Source: Microcoleus vaginatus HSN003 | GTDB taxonomy: Bacteria; Cyanobacteriota; Cyanobacteriia; Cyanobacteriales; Microcoleaceae | DNA length: 64,000 nt | Assembly (NCBI RefSeq): GCF_022701255.1 | Contig: NZ_CP031705.1 | Location: 5,394,001 to 5,458,000, forward strand | Reading direction: 5' to 3' | Part shown: positions 5,875 through 64,000 of the stretch, one piece after another | Layout of the letters: each line of letters opens with the position of its first letter | Numbering within the stretch: the stretch's first letter is position 1 | Notes under the pieces: generated by a model | Database searches by the model: none | What the model was told of the DNA's origin: nothing | What the model saw: only the letters and a program-made list of their open reading frames with translations | Position numbers and translations under genes: made by a program

Positions 5875-7302
5875 ATGACGGCAGAATGGGCAGTAGCAGA
5901 ACTACAATTTGCTTGTTTAGGCGATCGGCGTCGCCAGAAAAGACTGGTGCGAATTGTCTCAGACTTAGCCTCACAGCCCCATGCCACTATGCCACAAGCA
6001 TCAGGGGATTGGGCAGCCACCCAAGGGGCTTATGACTTTTGGTCATCTCCACGAGTCTCGTCAGATGCGATTCGCCAAGCCCACCAAAGAAGTACCATCG
6101 AACGAATCAAAGTACACCCAATGGTTCTGGCGATTCAGGACACCACAGAACTGAATTTCACCCACCATCCCAGCAAGAAAGGAATGGGACACTTGGATAG
6201 TGCCACCAGTCGGGGTCTGAAAGTTCACTCAGTATTTTGTAGCTCTGCCAATGGAGTACCATTAGGAGTGTTGCACCAACAAGTATGGGCGCGAGATCCT
6301 GCGACTATTGGTAAGAAGCATTCCAGAAATCAAACCGAAACCAAAGACAAAGAAAGCCAACGTTGGTTAACAGCTCTTGATGCGACCCAGAAGGTGATGC
6401 CAGAATCAATTACTGTACTAACGGTAGCCGATCGCGAAGCCGACATCTATGACTTTTTAGCGACTGAAAGACCTGAGAATTCTCAGTTGTTAATTCGCGC
6501 CTATCACAACCGTCAAGTCAAGAACTCTGATGGTACAAAAGAAGTAGAGCGACTACAAGGTGCGATCGCCAAAGTACCGATCGCCGGACAACTGGACTTG
6601 GAATTGCGAGCTAATCCGCAGCGAGAAGCTCGTAAAGCGACTCTGAACCTGCAGGCTACAACAGTCGAAATTCTACCTCCTCAAAGCCACCCTCACCACC
6701 AAAATTTACAGCCGCTGACAGTGCAAGTGATTCTGGCTAGTGAAAACAACCCACCGACCACAGAGAAGCCTGTAAGCTGGTTGTTATTGACCACCTTGCC
6801 CATTAATGGTTTCTCTGATCTTGTCCAGTGCTTACGCTGGTACAGTTACCGTTGGTTAATCGAACGCTATCATTACGTTCTTAAAAGTGGATGCGGTTTA
6901 GAACAGCTACAATTAGAAACTGCCGAGCGCATCGAACGGGCAATCTCAACCTACACAATTGTGGCATGGCGGTTATTGTGGATGATTTACGAATCTCGTC
7001 ATCATCCTGAGCTGGGAGGGGACACCATTCTCGAAACCCATGAATGGCAAGCACTTTACTGCACAATTCATGGGACTCCTATCCCTAGTGAATCACCCCC
7101 AACTTTAAGTAATTGCATTCGTTGGATTGCAAAATTAGGTGGATTTTTAGGACGTTCATGTGATGGTGAACCGGGTGTCAAGACCCTGTGGCGAGGCTGG
7201 CAACGTTTGCATGACATTGCTGGTACATGGAAATTAGTTTCCACCCATTCCCCCCCGGATGTCAAGCCTGATTTTGTTAAGAAAGATGTGAGTAAGGCAT
7301 AG
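5875..7302 (+). CDS. IS4 family transposase (copy 1)
   Basis: A 475-residue DDE transposase. The N-terminal region has the GDRRRQKRL and GDWAATQGAYDF features of the IS50/Tn5 branch of IS4. Candidate catalytic residues are D89 (AIQDTTEL), D186 (VADREADIY) and E330 in the IS4 signature Y323-x2-R326-x3-E330-x6-K337. It is full length with no disruption. It differs from copy 2 by one visible residue (Met39 here, Val there), which implies very recent duplication. ATG 5875 follows GAGGAACT. Confidence 0.93.
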   Translation: MTAEWAVAELQFACLGDRRRQKRLVRIVSDLASQPHATMPQASGDWAATQGAYDFWSSPRVSSDAIRQAHQRSTIERIKVHPMVLAIQDTTELNFTHHPSKKGMGHLDSATSRGLKVHSVFCSSANGVPLGVLHQQVWARDPATIGKKHSRNQTETKDKESQRWLTALDATQKVMPESITVLTVADREADIYDFLATERPENSQLLIRAYHNRQVKNSDGTKEVERLQGAIAKVPIAGQLDLELRANPQREARKATLNLQATTVEILPPQSHPHHQNLQPLTVQVILASENNPPTTEKPVSWLLLTTLPINGFSDLVQCLRWYSYRWLIERYHYVLKSGCGLEQLQLETAERIERAISTYTIVAWRLLWMIYESRHHPELGGDTILETHEWQALYCTIHGTPIPSESPPTLSNCIRWIAKLGGFLGRSCDGEPGVKTLWRGWQRLHDIAGTWKLVSTHSPPDVKPDFVKKDVSKA

Positions 7303-7711
7303 CTTGGTAAGGGGGGGAGTAAGAGCGTTTTTTTAGTTTGTTCGTTGGTTGTTTGGTTTTTTAACTGCCGAAACCATCCGAATGCTTCGCCCAATTCACG
7401 CGAGTAAACTCGAATCTTCAGGGTTATCACTAATCAGGGTGCGTTTACCAATATCTGCGGTGGGAAATCAGATAAATCAAATTCTAAAACATCGGAATTG
7501 TATCTGGCGCGGAAGCCTGGGCGAAGCATTCGGGCCATATATTGTCGGTTTTGAAGCTCATATTTTTCGCGGAATGCTTCGCCCCTACAGTTAATAATAA
7601 AGTTTATCTTATAGTCATGGTAACTCGGGGTTTTAGGTATTAACTTAGAAGTGGCGATCGTGGTTTTGGGCTTTGTTATAAATCTTTATGAAATCCTGAA
7701 ACGCTTAGATG
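7303..7711. other. Non-coding stretch right of IS copy 1
   Basis: No convincing gene. It begins with the G-rich half of the IS target palindrome and contains three scattered GAATGCTTCGCCC-type motifs (about 7379, 7507 as reverse complement, 7573), a short dispersed repeat. Small open frames here show no recognisable protein features. Confidence 0.5.
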
Positions 7712-9307
7712 TTACAGTCTACAAGTCTCGACGCGAGAGAAGAGATACCAAACCTTCAGGTTCCACAAAACACTCGCCTCCCAAACCTCTGCAAGGTTCA
7801 GGCCAGGGAGATGACCTTCTGGTGCTTTCTCTGAAAAAGTGAGGTTGTTGTAGGACAGCCATTCGTTATTTTTTCTCCAGCCTACCCGATCGGCAAACGT
7901 TTTCCAATCTTCCCAATCATTTTCCAAATCTTCCGTATCATATTTCCTGGTTCTCCCCAGACTTTGATAGATGCGCTTCTGCACGCTCCTTTTCCAATCT
8001 TCCCAATCATATTTCCTGGTTCTCCCCAGACTTTGATAGATGCGCTTCTGCACGCTAAAGCCGAAGCGCCCATTGCTGTATTTTACCCAAAGTTGGTCAA
8101 TGGTACGCAAGTCCTCGCAGGGGAATTTTTCTATACTTATTTCATCCAGCCATCCTTCTTTCTCCCTACCCGCCACCTTCAGCATCACTCTCGCGGTTTC
8201 CTCATCGGCTTCTTTCCACTTTTTCGCCGCCAATAAATTTCGCAAGTTTATATAATCCATCCCCACGGCTGAAATCAATTGCACCGTCTCCGCCTTTTTA
8301 GGTATCCCTAAATCTAACAAATTAAATTGCACCGTCTCCGCCTTTTTAGGTATCCCTAAATCCAAAGCAGCTTTCTTAGGCATCACTAAATCCAACCATT
8401 CCTGCACCGACTGCGGGCGATTTTGCGGTTCCAACTCCATCCCTTTCATAATCGCCGCATTCACCCTGTCGCTAATCTTAGAATTGTGTTGCTTCGGCGG
8501 AGTTACAGGGTCAATTGGTCTTCTGAATCTTGACGGACAGGGTAACTCACCTGTCAGCATTACGTAAAGAGTTACAGCCAAGGAATAAACATCAGTATAA
8601 GGGCCGCGTTCTGCCCGTCTTTCATACTGTTCGATGGGGGCAAAACACTCGGTACCAAAAACGCTACTACTTTTCAATTGCCCCGGTACTGTCAACTCCC
8701 GCGCCAATCCAAAATCAATCAAAACTGCTTCTAAACCCCGCCGTCTGAGCATAATATTTAGGGGTTTAACATCGCGGTGAGTCAGGTTTTGCTGATGCAC
8801 AAAACTCAGGGCGCTTCCTACTTGTTGAATCATTGGCAAAGCTTTTTCTTCCGACAAAATGCCGTTATCTTCGAGATATTCTGCTAAATTAGTGCCGTCG
8901 ATTAATTCCATCACCATGCACCACAATTGAAGATTTCCTACCATTTCGGGAAATACTTCCTCAACTCGGACGACGTGGGGATGGCTGCAGCGGGCTAAAG
9001 ATAAAGCTTCGTTGAGAAATTTGGTTTGTAATTCCTGAAAGTTTGGTTTACCTTGAACGTTGGCATTTAGGGTTTTGATGGCGACTACTTCGCCTTTTTT
9101 GAGGTTTTGGGCGCGGTAGGTGACACCGAATCCGCCACCGCCCAGGATTTCTTCGATGATGTATTTGCCGTTGTGTATTTGTTGTCCGGGGGGCCAGTGC
9201 CTCATGGCGGGTATGTGGGGGTGGAGAGGATGGTTTTGATTGTAGCTGAGATGGGGAAATTTTGTTGAGGGTTTTCGTGGGGTGTTGAGGGTTTCGACTT
9301 CGCTCAA
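7712..9307 (-). CDS. Ser/Thr protein kinase with C-terminal GUN4 domain
   Basis: A Hanks-type kinase (about residues 47-310: GGGGFGVTY loop, VAIKTL lysine, HRDVKPLN, IDFGLA, APIEQY) is followed by a linker and a GUN4-type domain (about 345-495, ending EGHLPG). GUN4 binds Mg-protoporphyrin and related tetrapyrroles, so a tetrapyrrole-responsive kinase is plausible. Two in-frame tandem duplications are visible: a 16-residue unit in the linker (IPKKAETVQ twice, 48-bp spacing near 8281-8365) and a unit inside GUN4 (VQKRIYQSLGRTRKYD twice, near 7915-8055). The frame opens with TTG at 9307, but the first residues come from a dispersed repeat; a methionine near 9205 (MRHWPPGQQ), just before the kinase fold, is a likelier start. 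The last 30 residues lie beyond the GUN4 fold. The gene lies between two inverted IS copies. Confidence 0.85.
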   Translation of the reverse strand: MSEVETLNTPRKPSTKFPHLSYNQNHPLHPHIPAMRHWPPGQQIHNGKYIIEEILGGGGFGVTYRAQNLKKGEVVAIKTLNANVQGKPNFQELQTKFLNEALSLARCSHPHVVRVEEVFPEMVGNLQLWCMVMELIDGTNLAEYLEDNGILSEEKALPMIQQVGSALSFVHQQNLTHRDVKPLNIMLRRRGLEAVLIDFGLARELTVPGQLKSSSVFGTECFAPIEQYERRAERGPYTDVYSLAVTLYVMLTGELPCPSRFRRPIDPVTPPKQHNSKISDRVNAAIMKGMELEPQNRPQSVQEWLDLVMPKKAALDLGIPKKAETVQFNLLDLGIPKKAETVQLISAVGMDYINLRNLLAAKKWKEADEETARVMLKVAGREKEGWLDEISIEKFPCEDLRTIDQLWVKYSNGRFGFSVQKRIYQSLGRTRKYDWEDWKRSVQKRIYQSLGRTRKYDTEDLENDWEDWKTFADRVGWRKNNEWLSYNNLTFSEKAPEGHLPGLNLAEVWEASVLWNLKVWYLFSRVETCRL

Positions 9308-58842: not shown

Positions 58843-59580
58843 ATGTCTCAATCTATTGTGCCAGCAGTCGAAGAAAAACAGCTCGATACTTCCCCGACAT
58901 TAACTTTTGAAGAATACAGAGTTTATCAAAGCAATGACGATGTAAAATACGAACTGTACAAAGGCAAATTAATACCGATGGCAACGGCTAGCGCATTACA
59001 TACCAGCATCTGCGAATATTGGGTTTACAAATTGCAGCGTTACCTAGCTGAACATAATCTCGATTTAGTCGTAAAAACTTCTGTAGGAGTGAGAACAGAA
59101 GAGGCTACATCTCGCATTCCCGATGTAGTTGTTTGCACAGAAAGTTTGTGGGAACAAGCTCTTGCAAGACGCGGATCGGGAATACTTGACTTTGATGAAA
59201 CGCCGTTATTAGTAATAGAAGTAGTTAGCCAAGATCGGCGGGCAGACTATATAACTAAACGAGGAGAGTACGAACAAGCTAACGTGCCGGAATATGTAAT
59301 AGTTGACCCAGCAGCAAACAGACAACGAGTGCGAGTTATGGCATTTCTCGAAGGTGATGACATTTATACAGAGGTAAATTACTGGCCGGGTGAGGAAATG
59401 GTATCTGTAGTATTTCCCAATTTGAGATTATCAGTCAATGAAATTTTATATCCGCCATTGGTGGAAGGGTTAATTAAGGCAGAACAAGCTCAATTGCAGC
59501 AACTACAAACAGTCGAACAACGCGCTGAAAGATTGGCGGCGAGGTTGCGAGAATTGGGTGTAGATCCTGATAGTGTGTAG
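58843..59580 (+). CDS. Uma2 family (DUF820) endonuclease-like protein
   Basis: 245 residues of the PD-(D/E)XK fold family common in cyanobacteria. Features are LTFEEYRVYQ.., KYELYKGKLIPM, the metal-site strands SRIPDVVVC and LLVIEVVSQDRRADYITKRGEYEQANVPEYVIVDP, and a C-terminal coiled coil rich in Gln and Glu (about 205-240). Function is unknown; these genes are multicopy and often mobile. It is convergent with the DUF1802-nuclease gene. Confidence 0.88.
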   Translation: MSQSIVPAVEEKQLDTSPTLTFEEYRVYQSNDDVKYELYKGKLIPMATASALHTSICEYWVYKLQRYLAEHNLDLVVKTSVGVRTEEATSRIPDVVVCTESLWEQALARRGSGILDFDETPLLVIEVVSQDRRADYITKRGEYEQANVPEYVIVDPAANRQRVRVMAFLEGDDIYTEVNYWPGEEMVSVVFPNLRLSVNEILYPPLVEGLIKAEQAQLQQLQTVEQRAERLAARLRELGVDPDSV

Positions 59581-59639: not shown

Positions 59640-61100
59640 TCAATCATCCAGCGGCAAATCGCGCAGGAAATAAAAGCGATCGCGCCCTAAATTCTCGCCT
59701 TTCATTCGCCCTGCATAACCTGTCAGCGGAGAAGAAAGTTCCACTAACATTTCGTGCAACTCTTCGCGGGACAACTTCTTGGGTGGGTTAGACATTGAAT
59801 ACGCACCGCTAAGAGCATCCACACTTGCTTGTTCAGAACCAGAATTTTCGTGATACTTTTTCAGAATTGAAAGAACGTGCGATCGCACTTTAATTTCTTG
59901 TTCAACTTGCTCAATATATTTAGCAACCTCATCATCAGATTGTCCCGGTTTTAAGTATTCTTTCAGTTTAAATAAGTCCACCGAGTTAGGATAGTTGCTT
60001 TGAAGTTTAACCAGTTTTTCCAGCGTCTCAGGGTTCATAATTGCCATACCGTGTACTTTTGCTGCATCCATAAGTTGAGTAGTTGGAACGCCAGGGCCAA
60101 TAATCAACTTAGTTGCTTTTGCGAGTATTTCATTATCTTTGAGCCGTAGCGTTCCTAAATTCAGCAATTGAACTGCTGTATCATTGGGGATTTTTTTACC
60201 CGCTTTGCACTCGCCAACTAAGGGGTAAGGTTTGGAGCATAATAAATCTAAGCCACCAGCACCACCTTTGTGGGCATAATCAATGGTAAATCCCAAAAAC
60301 TCAAGGCTATCGCGCACTACAATTTCAAAGTCTGTTCCTGCTTGATAGTTGCTTTTGTCTTTATCTAGTTCTTTGGTGCGATTTCCCAAAGCTGCTATAG
60401 TCTTTATCCAAGATAAATCCGGTTTGATTGGTTTTACAGGCTTATCGCTACTCCAACCTAGAAACATTTTGATTTCTGCGTCTAGTTGTTTGGCTTTTGG
60501 GTTGGTGGTGGATAAATGCACTAATGCACTTTGCAACTCTTCCAATTCTGGATGTTCAGGAGGCTCTAGTTTTTCCAGCTTTTGACGGCGTTTGGCAAAG
60601 ATAGACTCGCTCACCACAGGCGTTGAATCAGTAACATTTAGGGATTTTGGCAAAGGTACAAAATTCCCGCTGGGATGCACAGACATTTCCAGGGGCTGAG
60701 GCAGCAAATAAACCCGCAGGTAAGCTACAAAAATAAAAGGACGCTGCTGGAGAATTTGCTGTAATGCCTCTGTTTTCCAGACTGTTAACAGCGACAAAGC
60801 CTCTAATGATTCAGGTTCATTCACCATTTGGCACAATTCGCACCTAGCCCAAGCTTTGATCGAAACTTTATCTGAATTTAACTGAGTAAGTGCCTTTTGA
60901 GCAACGGGCAAAAAATGCGATCGATAATATCGATCGCCCGATAGCAAATCAACCGAAAGATTAGCTGGATACAAAGCAAATGTCCGCCCCGGATTCAGAA
61001 ACATCCGAGGCATAGCTGCAATCATTCGTCCTTGGATTAAAGCTTCAATATCTGGATTTGGTAAAGCCAGAGCTGTTTGAAGCAAAATTAATTTGCTCAT
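59640..61100 (-). CDS. DUF1802 domain fused to a PD-(D/E)XK nuclease domain
   Basis: 486 residues. The N-terminal part (about 1-145: IQGRMIAAMPRMFLNPGRTFALYP, WARCELCQMVNEPESLEALS, LRVYLLPQP) is a DUF1802 domain. After a linker with a Lys/Glu-rich coiled segment (about 165-200), a nuclease domain follows (about 253-370) with E259, D285 in GGAGGLDLL and E297-x-K299 in VGECKAG, the expected PD-(D/E)XK triad. The C-terminus has a Lys/Glu-rich helical stretch and the ending LPLDD. It starts 2 bp after the ATPase stop codon, so the two are almost certainly co-translated. Confidence 0.78.
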   Translation of the reverse strand: MSKLILLQTALALPNPDIEALIQGRMIAAMPRMFLNPGRTFALYPANLSVDLLSGDRYYRSHFLPVAQKALTQLNSDKVSIKAWARCELCQMVNEPESLEALSLLTVWKTEALQQILQQRPFIFVAYLRVYLLPQPLEMSVHPSGNFVPLPKSLNVTDSTPVVSESIFAKRRQKLEKLEPPEHPELEELQSALVHLSTTNPKAKQLDAEIKMFLGWSSDKPVKPIKPDLSWIKTIAALGNRTKELDKDKSNYQAGTDFEIVVRDSLEFLGFTIDYAHKGGAGGLDLLCSKPYPLVGECKAGKKIPNDTAVQLLNLGTLRLKDNEILAKATKLIIGPGVPTTQLMDAAKVHGMAIMNPETLEKLVKLQSNYPNSVDLFKLKEYLKPGQSDDEVAKYIEQVEQEIKVRSHVLSILKKYHENSGSEQASVDALSGAYSMSNPPKKLSREELHEMLVELSSPLTGYAGRMKGENLGRDRFYFLRDLPLDD

Positions 61101-61102
61101 GG

Positions 61103-63145
61103 TTAACTAAATAGGTCACTTAGATCCCCATCATCTGTATCATCATTGGTGGGAGGGTTGAAAATGTCTTCTAAAAGTAGGCTTTCATCAGACGGATCGC
61201 TAACCGCAGGAATTTGAACGGACGGATCGCTAACCGCAGCATTTTGACCTGACGGAGCGATAACCACAGGCATTTCACCGGAGGGATCGCTCAAAATTTC
61301 CCGCAGTAAAGAATTTTCAAAAGTGAGATGCTTCTGAGATATGAACTCAAAAACCTGGTCTTCTGTTAAATTGTAATCTCGGCATTTTTTACAAACAGCA
61401 CGGAGAGCCAGCAGCGGTTTTATTTGCTCTTCAATCAAATACACTACCTCACCGCCTTTTTCAACTGAAACAAGTTCTTCTAGAAGCTTATAGGCTTTAG
61501 AATTTTTCTTAATTGTCTCTATTTTTGATTGGGAACGGACTAAACAACCCCGCGTTAAATCAAATTTTTGATAATCAGTTAAGCGCTTTAGTCCAGCAAC
61601 TAATTCTGATTGAGAAAATTGCATAACTGCAACCCCAATCCTGATATCTCTGCCGTTTTCTGTACCAATAATTTTGAATTTTATCCAATTCGCATTTGGT
61701 ATTTTTGGTTGAATTTCTGTGGTAATATCATCAATTGTTACCTTGTCCACAGTCTGACCTTTCAAGGTTTCAAAACCAAAGTAAATAGCCTTAGCAATTG
61801 TGGCATCATTCTCCATATCCTCTCGGATATCTTCCTCAAGTTCCTTGGTGAAAGCAAACTCAAACCGCTCAACAGGATCTTCTGGAAGTTCAGGCATTGG
61901 AGGCATAAAAACTTTAAAATTCTCAGCACACCATGTCAAAGCTTCCCGTACAGTTGGCTTACCTCTGCCATATTCTCTCAATTGACTTTCATCAAATGGA
62001 TAGAGCGGATGAGGAGGGTTTAAATTCCTGACTTGATAAAAATCTTGTAACCATAACTTGACTAAATCAACTAAAGAATCGCCATTCAAGTGTTTTAACT
62101 CTATTGGTTTTCGCTTTGTGTATGTTGAAACTCGCTCAAGTATACTGGTAGGCATCAGGTTAACTGTTGTTATCCACGTATCTGGTGCCATTACTGTGAT
62201 AATAACCAAACCTTGACCGAGATCGGAGTGTTCGAGAGTATCGTACAAACGCTTAACAAGATCGACAATTACCTGCGGTGTTGTCAAGCCATCATCTCTA
62301 CAACTTGTATTTGCATCTATTTCATCAAAACAAATGATTACAGGACTGTAGTAACTCACCAAATTTAAAATTTGCTGGACATTATTCAGGGATTCTGCTT
62401 CTCTGTCCTGATTAGTCTTGCCGGAATTAGACGGCAATCCTAATTTCTCAGCTTTAGAGTTATCTAACTCTTCACCAGATAACCATTTGATAGCAAAAGG
62501 TGTTTCAGATTCCGATAAAGTCCACAAAACAGCTCGAACAATATAAGGATCTGCCTTTGATTTGGCTTTGAGAACTTGCTTAGTTAGGGTGTTCATGAAA
62601 TTCCTATTTTTAGTTGCCCAACTAGCACATACTTTGTCAAATCGATCTATCAGTTCTTGAGCAGAAAGATTTTGGGAAGCAGAATTGATAGCTTTGAAAC
62701 CTTCGTTTGCCATTGCTGCGGCTGTTTCCTGCCATTGCATGACGCTTTGGCTACCTGTGTGGCTCAAACTGTTAGCTAAAGTTTGCTGAAATTGGTATTT
62801 TATCAAGTTTAAGTCCGTGTAATTGTTCACACTGGCATAAACAAATAAAGCACCACCATTAGTTTCTAGTCTGTGGCGAGTACGACTTAAAATGTGGCTT
62901 TTCCCCACTCCCTGTTGAGCGGTTAATACCAGTGAAGTGACCTTTTCTTGGCTAGATTGACTTGTCTGTACTTTTTCAACTGCCTGAAAAATGGCATCGG
63001 AAGCGTGAGCATTTAAACTCGGAATATCGGGGAACCCTTTTCCCCAAATGTCTTGTTCTTTGACAATTCCAGCTTTGGTAAATGGATTGTGATTTTGGAT
63101 TGCAGCATTGAGGGCTTCTATCGGAGAAACTGGTATATTGTTCAT
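61103..63145 (-). CDS. P-loop ATPase, second gene of putative defence operon
   Basis: 680 residues. Walker A is AQQGVGKS (about 76-83) and Walker B is VIICFDEID (D274, E275), giving a STAND/AAA-like ATPase of the ORC/Cdc6 or DUF499-like sort. The conserved core ends near residue 400, then an acidic region (PEDPVERFEFAFTKELEEDI) and a C-terminal domain with a possible helix-rich fold (about 480-600). The last 70 residues carry about four degenerate 10-residue repeats (DPSxxxPAVx) and a very acidic end (DDTDDGDLSDLFS). No transmembrane helix. It is 47 bp downstream of the winged-helix gene and 2 bp upstream of the nuclease gene. Confidence 0.75.
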   Translation of the reverse strand: MNNIPVSPIEALNAAIQNHNPFTKAGIVKEQDIWGKGFPDIPSLNAHASDAIFQAVEKVQTSQSSQEKVTSLVLTAQQGVGKSHILSRTRHRLETNGGALFVYASVNNYTDLNLIKYQFQQTLANSLSHTGSQSVMQWQETAAAMANEGFKAINSASQNLSAQELIDRFDKVCASWATKNRNFMNTLTKQVLKAKSKADPYIVRAVLWTLSESETPFAIKWLSGEELDNSKAEKLGLPSNSGKTNQDREAESLNNVQQILNLVSYYSPVIICFDEIDANTSCRDDGLTTPQVIVDLVKRLYDTLEHSDLGQGLVIITVMAPDTWITTVNLMPTSILERVSTYTKRKPIELKHLNGDSLVDLVKLWLQDFYQVRNLNPPHPLYPFDESQLREYGRGKPTVREALTWCAENFKVFMPPMPELPEDPVERFEFAFTKELEEDIREDMENDATIAKAIYFGFETLKGQTVDKVTIDDITTEIQPKIPNANWIKFKIIGTENGRDIRIGVAVMQFSQSELVAGLKRLTDYQKFDLTRGCLVRSQSKIETIKKNSKAYKLLEELVSVEKGGEVVYLIEEQIKPLLALRAVCKKCRDYNLTEDQVFEFISQKHLTFENSLLREILSDPSGEMPVVIAPSGQNAAVSDPSVQIPAVSDPSDESLLLEDIFNPPTNDDTDDGDLSDLFS

Positions 63146-63192
63146 GGTTATCGGGTGTGAGGTAACGAACTACAAAAAGATTGAGAACAATT

Positions 63193-63915
63193 TTATGGAT
63201 TTAAGCGCTTGGCGTAGTAACGCAATGTACCACCAGGAATGATGATTGAGTCTTCACGTTTATCTGGGGTGATATCTCGCATATCTCCAGCCATTAGCTG
63301 AAAAATATCATTAGCCTGCATTTCCAACAGCCACTCATTGAACTCCGATCGCCCTACCATTTCCCCGATCGCCCGACGCATCCGATAAATCGGCACTAAA
63401 TCGTCTAAGTTATAATCCCGGTTTAAGCTGTCATACACATCGATCGCCACAGCCTTAAAATCGTCATAGGATGCGATCGTCCCTACATCCGCCTTCCCCT
63501 TATCAACAGCAACACTCGCCGCACCATCCTGATGGCGAATCCACTTCAACAAAGAATTTCCCAGCCGAGTACCAATTTGAGAACCATCAAACTCAAACAA
63601 AGAATCCCGACTTTTCAGCCCCTGCGCTAAAACTTCTTTCCCTTTCGCCGTCAATTCCACCAGCGTCACCCGATTTACCAGCGAATACTCGATCGCCCCA
63701 GTCGCCTGCAACTCACCGAGCACTTCCACATATCTCTGACTCGTCTCATTAGTCCGCACAATCCGCTTAGTCAAATCCCCCTTTTTCACCATCATCTTCC
63801 CGCCGCCCAAATCCCACAAATTCAGCAGTACCCGAACTTTTGCCTTCCCATCCCACACCGCTTGCTCTTCCGGTGTCAAAGTGTTAGACACCGCAATTTC
63901 ATCTTTCTCAGACAT
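63193..63915 (-). CDS. Winged-helix-like protein, first gene of putative defence operon
   Basis: About 240 residues. The N-terminal half (about 20-120) looks like two helices plus a winged helix (VRVLLNLWDLGGGKMMVKKGDLTKRI.., YVEVLGELQATGAIEYSLVNRVTLVELTAKGKEVLAQGL). The C-terminal half (LLKWIRHQ.., LDDLVPIYRMRRAIGEMVGRSEFNEWLLEMQANDIFQLMAGD) is helical. ATG 63915 (MSEKDE) is preferred to 63921 because AAAGGT lies six bases ahead of it. DNA binding or a regulatory/adaptor role is inferred from fold and position. Upstream genes may lie beyond the window edge. Confidence 0.65.
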   Translation of the reverse strand: MSEKDEIAVSNTLTPEEQAVWDGKAKVRVLLNLWDLGGGKMMVKKGDLTKRIVRTNETSQRYVEVLGELQATGAIEYSLVNRVTLVELTAKGKEVLAQGLKSRDSLFEFDGSQIGTRLGNSLLKWIRHQDGAASVAVDKGKADVGTIASYDDFKAVAIDVYDSLNRDYNLDDLVPIYRMRRAIGEMVGRSEFNEWLLEMQANDIFQLMAGDMRDITPDKREDSIIIPGGTLRYYAKRLNP

Positions 63916-64000
63916 ATTCATACCTTTAAATACTTGTTCTTAGTATCAAATATTATCATAAATCTTCCTGCCAAACATCTCAACTTTACCGTAAAATCCC

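Follow-up and report, generated by a model that had tools for sequence, protein, structure and literature searches.

The operon and its three proteins

The stretch of the Microcoleus vaginatus HSN003 genome (6.76 Mb, single contig) analyzed here comprises 64,000 nucleotides (NZ_CP031705.1, positions 5,394,001 to 5,458,000) and is referred to as the window, numbered from its first letter. Open reading frame (ORF) calls on the window delineate a three-gene operon on the minus strand (59640-63921), encoding a probable winged-helix protein (WH), an AAA+ ATPase and NUC, in which a DUF1802 domain is fused to a PD-(D/E)XK nuclease. A preliminary description of this DNA had reported three co-directional genes with gaps of 47 and 2 bp, and the ORFs (63921-63193, 63145-61103 and 61100-59640) agree with it, WH being separated from the ATPase gene by 47 bp and the latter from NUC by 2 bp. 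The WH gene itself was also recovered; the start proposed for it, the ATG at 63915, is the in-frame codon 3 of the ORF beginning at 63921 and is retained as a second possible start. The features are as follows.

63193..63921, minus strand: WH, probable winged-helix protein of 242 amino acids (aa), first gene (ORF; weak winged helix-turn-helix (wHTH) profile match; upstream, with the ATPase, of 117 of 123 NUC copies)
63562..63921, minus strand: WH_N, codons 1-120 of WH, the 5' anchor (similarity across the genus broadly equal to that of flanking genes; independent variation in 16 same-genus operons)
61103..63145, minus strand: ATPase of 680 aa, AAA+ with an ORC/Cdc6-like predicted fold (ORF, profile matches, model; five classes in the genus)
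62897..62911, minus strand: Walker A motif GVGKS, ATPase residues 79-83 (G79, G81 and K82 in 123/123)
62321..62332, minus strand: Walker B motif CFDE, ATPase residues 272-275 (D274 in 123/123, E275 in 104/123)
59640..61100, minus strand: NUC, DUF1802, PD-(D/E)XK nuclease and C-terminal domain, 486 aa (ORF, Pfam, model, alignment)
60582..61073, minus strand: DUF1802 domain, NUC residues 10-173, predicted ASCH/PUA-like fold (Pfam PF08819, E = 2.1e-33)
59751..60458, minus strand: swappable nuclease and C-terminal module, NUC residues ~215-450 (three classes in the genus)
60204..60326, minus strand: NUC catalytic residues E259 (60324-60326), D285 (60246-60248), E297 (60210-60212) and K299 (60204-60206), kept in 122/123 copies
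59640..59723, minus strand: NUC 3' tail, residues 460-486 and stop (recurrent right junction of replacements)
58843..59580, plus strand: convergent Uma2 gene, downstream flank of the slot, outside the operon (Pfam Uma2, E = 5.2e-33; Uma2 genes at this flank across the genus)

Within the 18 kb around the operon, the gene upstream of WH, which by eye carries a rhodanese domain, is divergent, and the Uma2 gene past NUC, whose adjacency had been correctly noted before, is convergent. Because of these two orientations the operon is complete with three genes, and the earlier suspicion that others were missing at the window edge can be dropped. A promoter and terminator scan gave no excess over shuffles.

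WH, ATPase and NUC genes occur together far beyond chance. A NUC profile search over 386 genomes of the phylum matched 68, with stubs and stand-alone DUF1802 proteins counted as well, and an ATPase search over 292 phylum genomes matched 64, many of them weakly; in one scan, from which the best 80 of 249 relatives were retained, these 80 were cyanobacterial. We annotated 128 relatives' loci (numbered with an L, genomes with a G) in addition to the window's own. They form two sets of 80 and 48 loci, which were not deduplicated and share at least four genomes (L035/L081, L033/L083, L046/L087 and L060/L156). Over both sets, the three genes stand on the same strand and in the same order at 117 of 123 NUC copies: 77 of the 83 NUC genes of the first set have WH and ATPase genes upstream on the same strand, and all 40 of the second set belong to a trio, and eight loci of this second set have the ATPase without this nuclease. 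Contig ends truncate four of the six incomplete cases (L112, L119, L139 and L147); the other two are L132, where a second NUC gene lacks an ATPase of its own, and L134, which shows an ATPase match and no separate WH gene. Even the spacing is maintained, with a median gap of 47 bp between WH and ATPase in both sets and of 2 or 5.5 bp, depending on the set, between ATPase and NUC.

The active sites are equally well preserved. Before alignment, 8 of 82 nuclease (A4), 14 of 77 ATPase (A5), 26 of 76 WH (A6) and 5 of 45 WH (A3) rows were omitted. E259, D285, E297 and K299 were retained in 122 of 123 NUC copies (window included, one short copy omitted), the sole exception being the second NUC gene of L132 (L132:11584-13032), which has lost all four residues and lies beside an intact copy; it may be a dead partner or a decoy. 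In the ATPase alignment (n = 123), the Walker A residues G79, G81 and K82 and the Walker B residue D274 are invariant. Two observations that the preliminary description would have taken as refuting it, a lack of co-occurrence of the three families in other genomes and loss of the nuclease triad from most homologues, were thus looked for and not made.

The label of WH is weaker than the other two. It has an NCBIfam wHTH profile match at E = 0.01, far below the profile's cut-off; Pfam gave nothing of note for it, and a search of PDB profiles gave no match to DndG/SspB at E<=5. The protein has two conserved halves, and hhalign comparisons among winged-helix candidates gave no matches. The NCBIfam matches of the trio are all sub-threshold, confined to P-loop and wHTH profiles, with none above any curated cut-off. 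In Pfam, the ATPase obtained generic AAA/KAP matches and the nuclease domain of NUC matched Mrr_cat at E = 0.1, below the cut-off. PDB profile searches yielded nothing useful with the NUC and WH alignments and general P-loop matches only with that of the ATPase.

Structure models were obtained for NUC and the ATPase. For that of NUC (mean pLDDT 85, pTM 0.60), Foldseek ranked ASCH structures first (prob 1.00, TMt 0.49-0.66, lowest E 3.5e-3), followed by N.BspD6I nickase, ORC/Cdc6 and EndoMS chains, none of which passes E 0.001; no viral structure matched at E<=0.001. Because of the size of the matches and the N-terminal strand-helix order of the model, we place the ASCH similarity on DUF1802, which suggests an ASCH/PUA-like fold for this domain; NUC had no match to the ASCH sequence profiles of Pfam at E<=1. 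The top match is a Zymomonas ASCH protein, an RNase. The ATPase model (pLDDT 88, pTM 0.63) best matched Drosophila ORC/Cdc6 structures (E = 5.5e-4), with BrxC at ranks 11-12 (TMt 0.27-0.28), suggesting an ORC/Cdc6-like ATPase; the likeness is one of fold only, Pfam PF24389 (ORC-CDC6-like) being absent from the matches of the protein. Residues 447-537 of the model follow a helix-strand-strand-strand-helix-strand order, as in PD-(D/E)XK domains, and hhalign against the nuclease domain of NUC gave no match.

A PD-(D/E)XK enzyme, an AAA+ protein and a DNA-binding protein are also the ingredients of a TnsA/TnsC-type transposition module, from which the operon could have been domesticated, and a TnsC chain is indeed among the weak profile matches of the ATPase (E = 0.06). 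However, the model matches ORC/Cdc6 and BrxC, TnsC is absent among the 50 Foldseek matches listed, Pfam identifies no transposase gene in the operon, and the locus keeps a fixed place, so that we consider this origin very improbable.

Several loci depart from the standard trio. In Oscillatoria sp. PCC 10802 the operon, whole or in part, occurs three times in tandem along with an extra ATPase gene (L093:3444-21164), and L064, L066, L067 and L080 encode ATPases of this family without an adjacent WH or nuclease gene, the neighbour in L066 being vWA-like by eye. In a sister group, WH and ATPase genes (L077, ATPase 6052-8112 and WH 8134-8952; L079, WH 5943-6770 and ATPase 6857-8827) lie near a protein that by eye resembles an RNase D-type exonuclease plus a Cas4-like nuclease, instead of the DUF1802-nuclease. 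At L061 (13514-15820), 3 kb past the operon, a second WH gene precedes an ATPase-like gene whose product looks nuclease-like at its C-terminus (by eye), and a DNA methyltransferase-like gene lies nearby (by eye). The window's genome also encodes a second, stand-alone DUF1802 protein (G000:C1:2552244-2552765, L169; 226-aa frame), and Uma2 genes are abundant in the genus (the 15 genomes searched gave 7 to 31 matches each).

Three separately varying units in a fixed chromosomal slot

The locus is a fixed chromosomal slot and not a mobile island. The operon is present in 24 of the 29 genomes of the genus, being partly visible at contig ends in G389 and G404 and split over two contigs in G395; in 21 of these 24 it adjoins the same rhodanese/Nudix/peptidase or GGDEF genes, two show the Uma2 gene only and one carries it elsewhere. 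No operon was found in G393, G405 and G407, the contigs of the last two breaking within the slot, and G407 retains a NUC tail beside Uma2 (L195). Many Nostocales harbor the operon at another constant place, with mdh and pgi nearby at opposite sides (gene names by eye); among the neighbor clusters over 129 loci, the pgi cluster (cluster 0) occurs in 46 and the mdh cluster (cluster 2) in 39. Searches of 72,556 plasmid records (NUC and ATPase), 50,697 phage records (ATPase only) and viral contigs (NUC only) found no relative.

Within this stable frame, the operon itself is a mosaic. Across 22 loci within or close to the genus, the proteins of the flanking genes, where found, show the following identities to those of the window: iPGM 85-94%, peptidase 72-93%, rhodanese 80-94%, GGDEF 75-97%, Nudix 66-92% and Uma2 62-96%. 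ATPases of the same loci are 78-87, 41-45 or 28% identical to that of the window and NUC proteins 74-95, 58-68 or 38%, in differing combinations, and sliding DNA identity against the window in 14 operons falls into sharp-edged blocks. Among 16 operons from distinct genomes of the genus, ATPases form five classes (72-97% identity within, 26-47% between) and the nuclease and C-terminal modules three (63-97% within, 37-52% between). All six combinations of ATPase classes A and B with nuclease classes I, II and III occur, and a census of the genus, in which 22 of 29 genomes were typable (G387 being mixed within its nuclease module and G395 typed from about half of it), recovered 10 of the 15 ATPase-nuclease combinations. 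For example, L193 and L034 share 93% identity in the nuclease module and 92% in WH_N versus 29% in the ATPase, 31% in DUF1802 and 38% in the C-terminal half of WH (WH_C).

Mantel tests on the 16 genus operons resolve three separately varying units, namely WH_N; WH_C, ATPase and DUF1802; and the nuclease with its C-terminal domain. Co-variation links WH_C, the two halves of the ATPase and DUF1802 (r 0.76-0.98, p 0.0005), including ATPase with DUF1802 (r = 0.76) and WH_C with DUF1802 (r = 0.94). The nuclease module varies independently of WH_C, ATPase and DUF1802 (r -0.01 to 0.11, p 0.16-0.49), the value for DUF1802 being r = 0.11, and WH_N is correlated with no other part (r -0.11 to 0.07). Without the two class C operons, the co-varying unit remains at r 0.51-0.97, the nuclease at -0.12 to -0.02 and WH_N at -0.06 to 0.20, with its maximum for the nuclease (p 0.08). 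The same ranking was obtained for 89 other operons (91 less 2 near-identical ones), a set in which shared ancestry inflates all values (0.72-0.86 within the unit, 0.18-0.33 between nuclease and unit, 0.35-0.52 for WH_N). Linkage alone is insufficient to account for this pattern, because in the genus DUF1802 and the nuclease do not co-vary although they belong to one polypeptide, while WH_C and DUF1802, encoded ~2 kb apart, do. The preliminary description had seen a regulator, a motor and a nuclease in this layout; the regulator role of WH is putative, and the co-variation of its C-terminal half with the ATPase suggests a complex partner.

A constant place with conserved flanks, in the genus and elsewhere in many Nostocales, and the lack of matches in the plasmid, phage and viral records searched would also suit a vertically inherited housekeeping complex for DNA repair or chromosome maintenance, built from an ORC-like ATPase and a nuclease. 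Several observations speak against it, however. NUC matches of any kind, stubs and lone DUF1802 proteins included, are limited to the 68 of 386 phylum genomes mentioned above; at the same slot, the ATPases of L193 and L194 are 28-29% identical to that of the window between flanks at 82-93% (one Nudix gene, 67%); the ATPase ORF is divided in two in L035/L081 (one genome), L059, L074, L076 and L102; and defence-type genes can stand in the place of the operon interior, as detailed below. We therefore regard a housekeeping role as improbable.

Abortive systems likewise combine an exchangeable effector with a co-varying module of sensor-like character, and the operon could accordingly be a self-directed conflict system (abortive infection or plasmid addiction) whose nuclease attacks host DNA or RNA once WH and the ATPase sense infection. 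The best structural match of NUC, the Zymomonas ASCH protein, is an RNase, whereas the Mrr-like PD-(D/E)XK domain and the ORC-like ATPase point to DNA; cutting of self and of invader DNA is not separated by the data. On balance, self-directed attack appears rather unlikely.

Replacement of the operon interior by defence-type genes

At five loci, the interior of the operon is substituted by defence-type genes lying beside the last ~27 codons of NUC, with a truncated WH gene at four of the five. In the slot of the genus, L180 and L181 (the latter repeated as L203) consist of WH codons to ~145, a gene for a 1083- or 1089-aa SNF2-helicase protein (E 3e-16 and 1e-16 for SNF2; below the Pfam cut-off for a PLD-like part) and the NUC tail. 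Their likeness to intact WH genes ends at the identical nucleotide, after a GCGATCG motif, and they perhaps represent one event, their cargo being the same. Matches of the SNF2 protein to DrmD, DpdE and others were attributed to shared helicase similarity and not to membership in these systems. L173 and L174, which may also derive from one event, comprise WH codons to ~92, a 335- or 267-aa PDC-M09A-like protein (E 3e-10 and 1.5e-13), a BnzB-like protein (E 1e-61 and 4e-62) and the NUC tail. L173 keeps the upstream neighbors of the Nostocales slot and has neither mdh nor pgi, and L174 lies elsewhere in genome G022, whose intact operon adjoins pgi (L069). Finally, L172 shows a PDC-S28 helicase gene (E = 2e-276) on the opposite strand beside the NUC tail, between mdh and pgi and without a WH remnant.

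The right junction of these replacements is recurrent. The match to the NUC tail starts at profile positions 21-26 (codons ~458-460) in L172, L173, L174, L180 and L181 and likewise in L179, where the tail stands alone between mdh and pgi; these amount to about four independent cases. A second, shorter class of tails starts at positions 50-67 (e.g., L039, L115, L149 and L195), and L171 and L176 hold longer decayed NUC ends. Three extra NUC 3' ends of ~75 bp lie in direct orientation downstream of the intact NUC gene of L068 (L068:3410-4947), separated by small genes that look toxin-antitoxin-like by eye. In total, 33 tail matches at 29 loci fall outside the listed NUC genes, a raw count that includes unlisted NUC genes (L182, L183, L193, L194 and L204) and counts L181 again as L203; only the named loci are therefore used for claims of replacement.

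Taken together, these observations allow a bolder and still tentative proposal, in which the locus would be an allele-exchange platform for immunity. The 5' part of WH and the last ~27 codons of NUC would provide a fixed frame; inside it, exchange would affect sensor-ATPase modules, nuclease modules and entire sets of unrelated defence genes. The NUC 3' end would act as a recurrent, perhaps site-specific, cassette junction, and the ASCH-like domain, although fused to the nuclease, would in function be part of the ATPase instead.

A predicted DNA-targeting defence system and its relation to known systems

The operon is a variant of a type already predicted in print. One study (PMC10853773, NAR 2024) predicts in a single sentence a counter-invader system of an ORC/Cdc6 protein, an ASCH-REase and a wHTH protein, and calls it mobile. 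As far as testable, the operon shares with it an ORC/Cdc6-like AAA+ protein with active Walker motifs (by fold), a REase fused to an ASCH-like domain (by model), a probable wHTH-type protein and the predicted role. Its wHTH partner is given there as DndG-like, with a triple wHTH, and an inactive REase domain after the AAA+ core is stated for related HerA/FtsK-linked operons; DUF1802, Nostoc, Microcoleus and cyanobacteria do not occur in the main text. In contrast to the mobile neighborhoods reported there, which are a description rather than a definition, the operon has a fixed chromosomal slot with constant flanks, no plasmid, phage or viral matches in the searches above, and undergoes module reassortment and replacement. 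The earlier statement that no named system with a DUF1802-nuclease was known is accordingly to be read in two parts: we found none, and the type itself had been predicted.

Other systems show partial likeness. PUA-superfamily modification-dependent endonucleases of type IV (EVE-HNH, PMC7897488, and SRA-HNH) also unite a PUA/ASCH-like domain and a nuclease in one polypeptide without a methyltransferase in the operon. Here, however, there are AAA+ ATPase and WH partners, with which, and not with the nuclease, DUF1802 co-varies, and base reading is putative. BREX resembles the operon in that the ATPase model is similar to BrxC, which is also placed in the ORC/Cdc6 clade and measures 1200 to 1300 aa (PMC12839542), as opposed to 680 aa here. 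BREX systems appear to be without a nuclease (PMC9122589), in contrast to the operon, and Pfam found neither PglZ nor a methyltransferase among the three genes, flanking ORFs having been judged by eye only. The similarities to the DS-41 anti-phage protein (NF053860; E = 9.5e-6, 24.8 of the 370 bits of the cut-off) and to the Sll1717 ATPase family (NF047389; E = 7.1e-7, 28.7 of 75 bits) are limited to the P-loop region of the ATPase. In the accessible text of the literature searched, DUF1802 was found in forest soil gene networks only, and COG4293 and PF08819 not at all; papers on cyanobacteria with ASCH, Cdc6 or defence, or on defence hotspots, describe neither the slot nor module reassortment among the matches listed, as far as their text was available. 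Apparently new are the constancy of the slot, the independent variation of three units and the occurrence of other defence genes where the interior would be.

The genomic evidence strongly favours immunity: module reassortment, defence-type genes in the interior's place, and tandem and broken copies all support the defence reading of the preliminary description. We thus consider it quite probable, and the most likely explanation, that WH, ATPase and NUC form a DNA-targeting defence system of cyanobacteria, mostly filamentous ones. In the proposed mechanism, WH and the ORC/Cdc6-like AAA+ ATPase would engage double-stranded DNA, with the nuclease subunit gated by the binding or hydrolysis of ATP. 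NUC would dock through its ASCH-like DUF1802, a putative docking or sensing part that may in addition recognize a modified base or some other sign of foreign DNA, and its PD-(D/E)XK domain, presumably a plug-in effector, would cut the DNA of the invader. As the operon contains no methyltransferase, self would be spared at the sensing step, as in type IV modification-dependent restriction.

Several points weigh against defence. Support is computational, and PADLOC-DB 2.0.0, a check that had been proposed at the outset, returned no family at E<=1 for any of the three proteins. The ASCH assignment depends on a model with a pTM of 0.60 and a best E of 3.5e-3, aligned residues being absent from the match table, and the inactive nuclease domain described for related ATPases was not confirmed by hhalign. 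Defence genes are usually found through their clustering in mobile islands; unlike most of them, the operon keeps to a single chromosomal site in almost every genome of the genus in which it is present, and the plasmid, phage and viral searches found no relative. Moreover, in other genomes devoid of the operon, the corresponding place holds ordinary or unclear genes, such as two flavin oxidoreductases (L187), an aldehyde dehydrogenase (L202), a NACHT protein (L185), RTX and CHAT proteins (L189) or LRR and PMT proteins (L199). L187, L189, L199 and L202 were not counted as replacements because their genes are ordinary or unclear and no NUC tail was found. A PADLOC scan covered 10 proteins among such remnant-less occupants; neither the weak C3a186 matches of the L187 oxidoreductases nor the PD-T4-6 matches of L200 (best E = 5e-60), which fall on the kinase domain of an 1842-aa kinase/AAA/GAF/histidine-kinase protein, were counted as defence.

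In filamentous cyanobacteria, the locus combines a stable chromosomal slot with strong diversification inside the operon. Because three parts vary independently, the machine can be divided into an anchor, a unit of sensor and ATPase and an effector nuclease, a division that predicts which of its parts touch. Further defence systems may be found between WH remnants and NUC tails.

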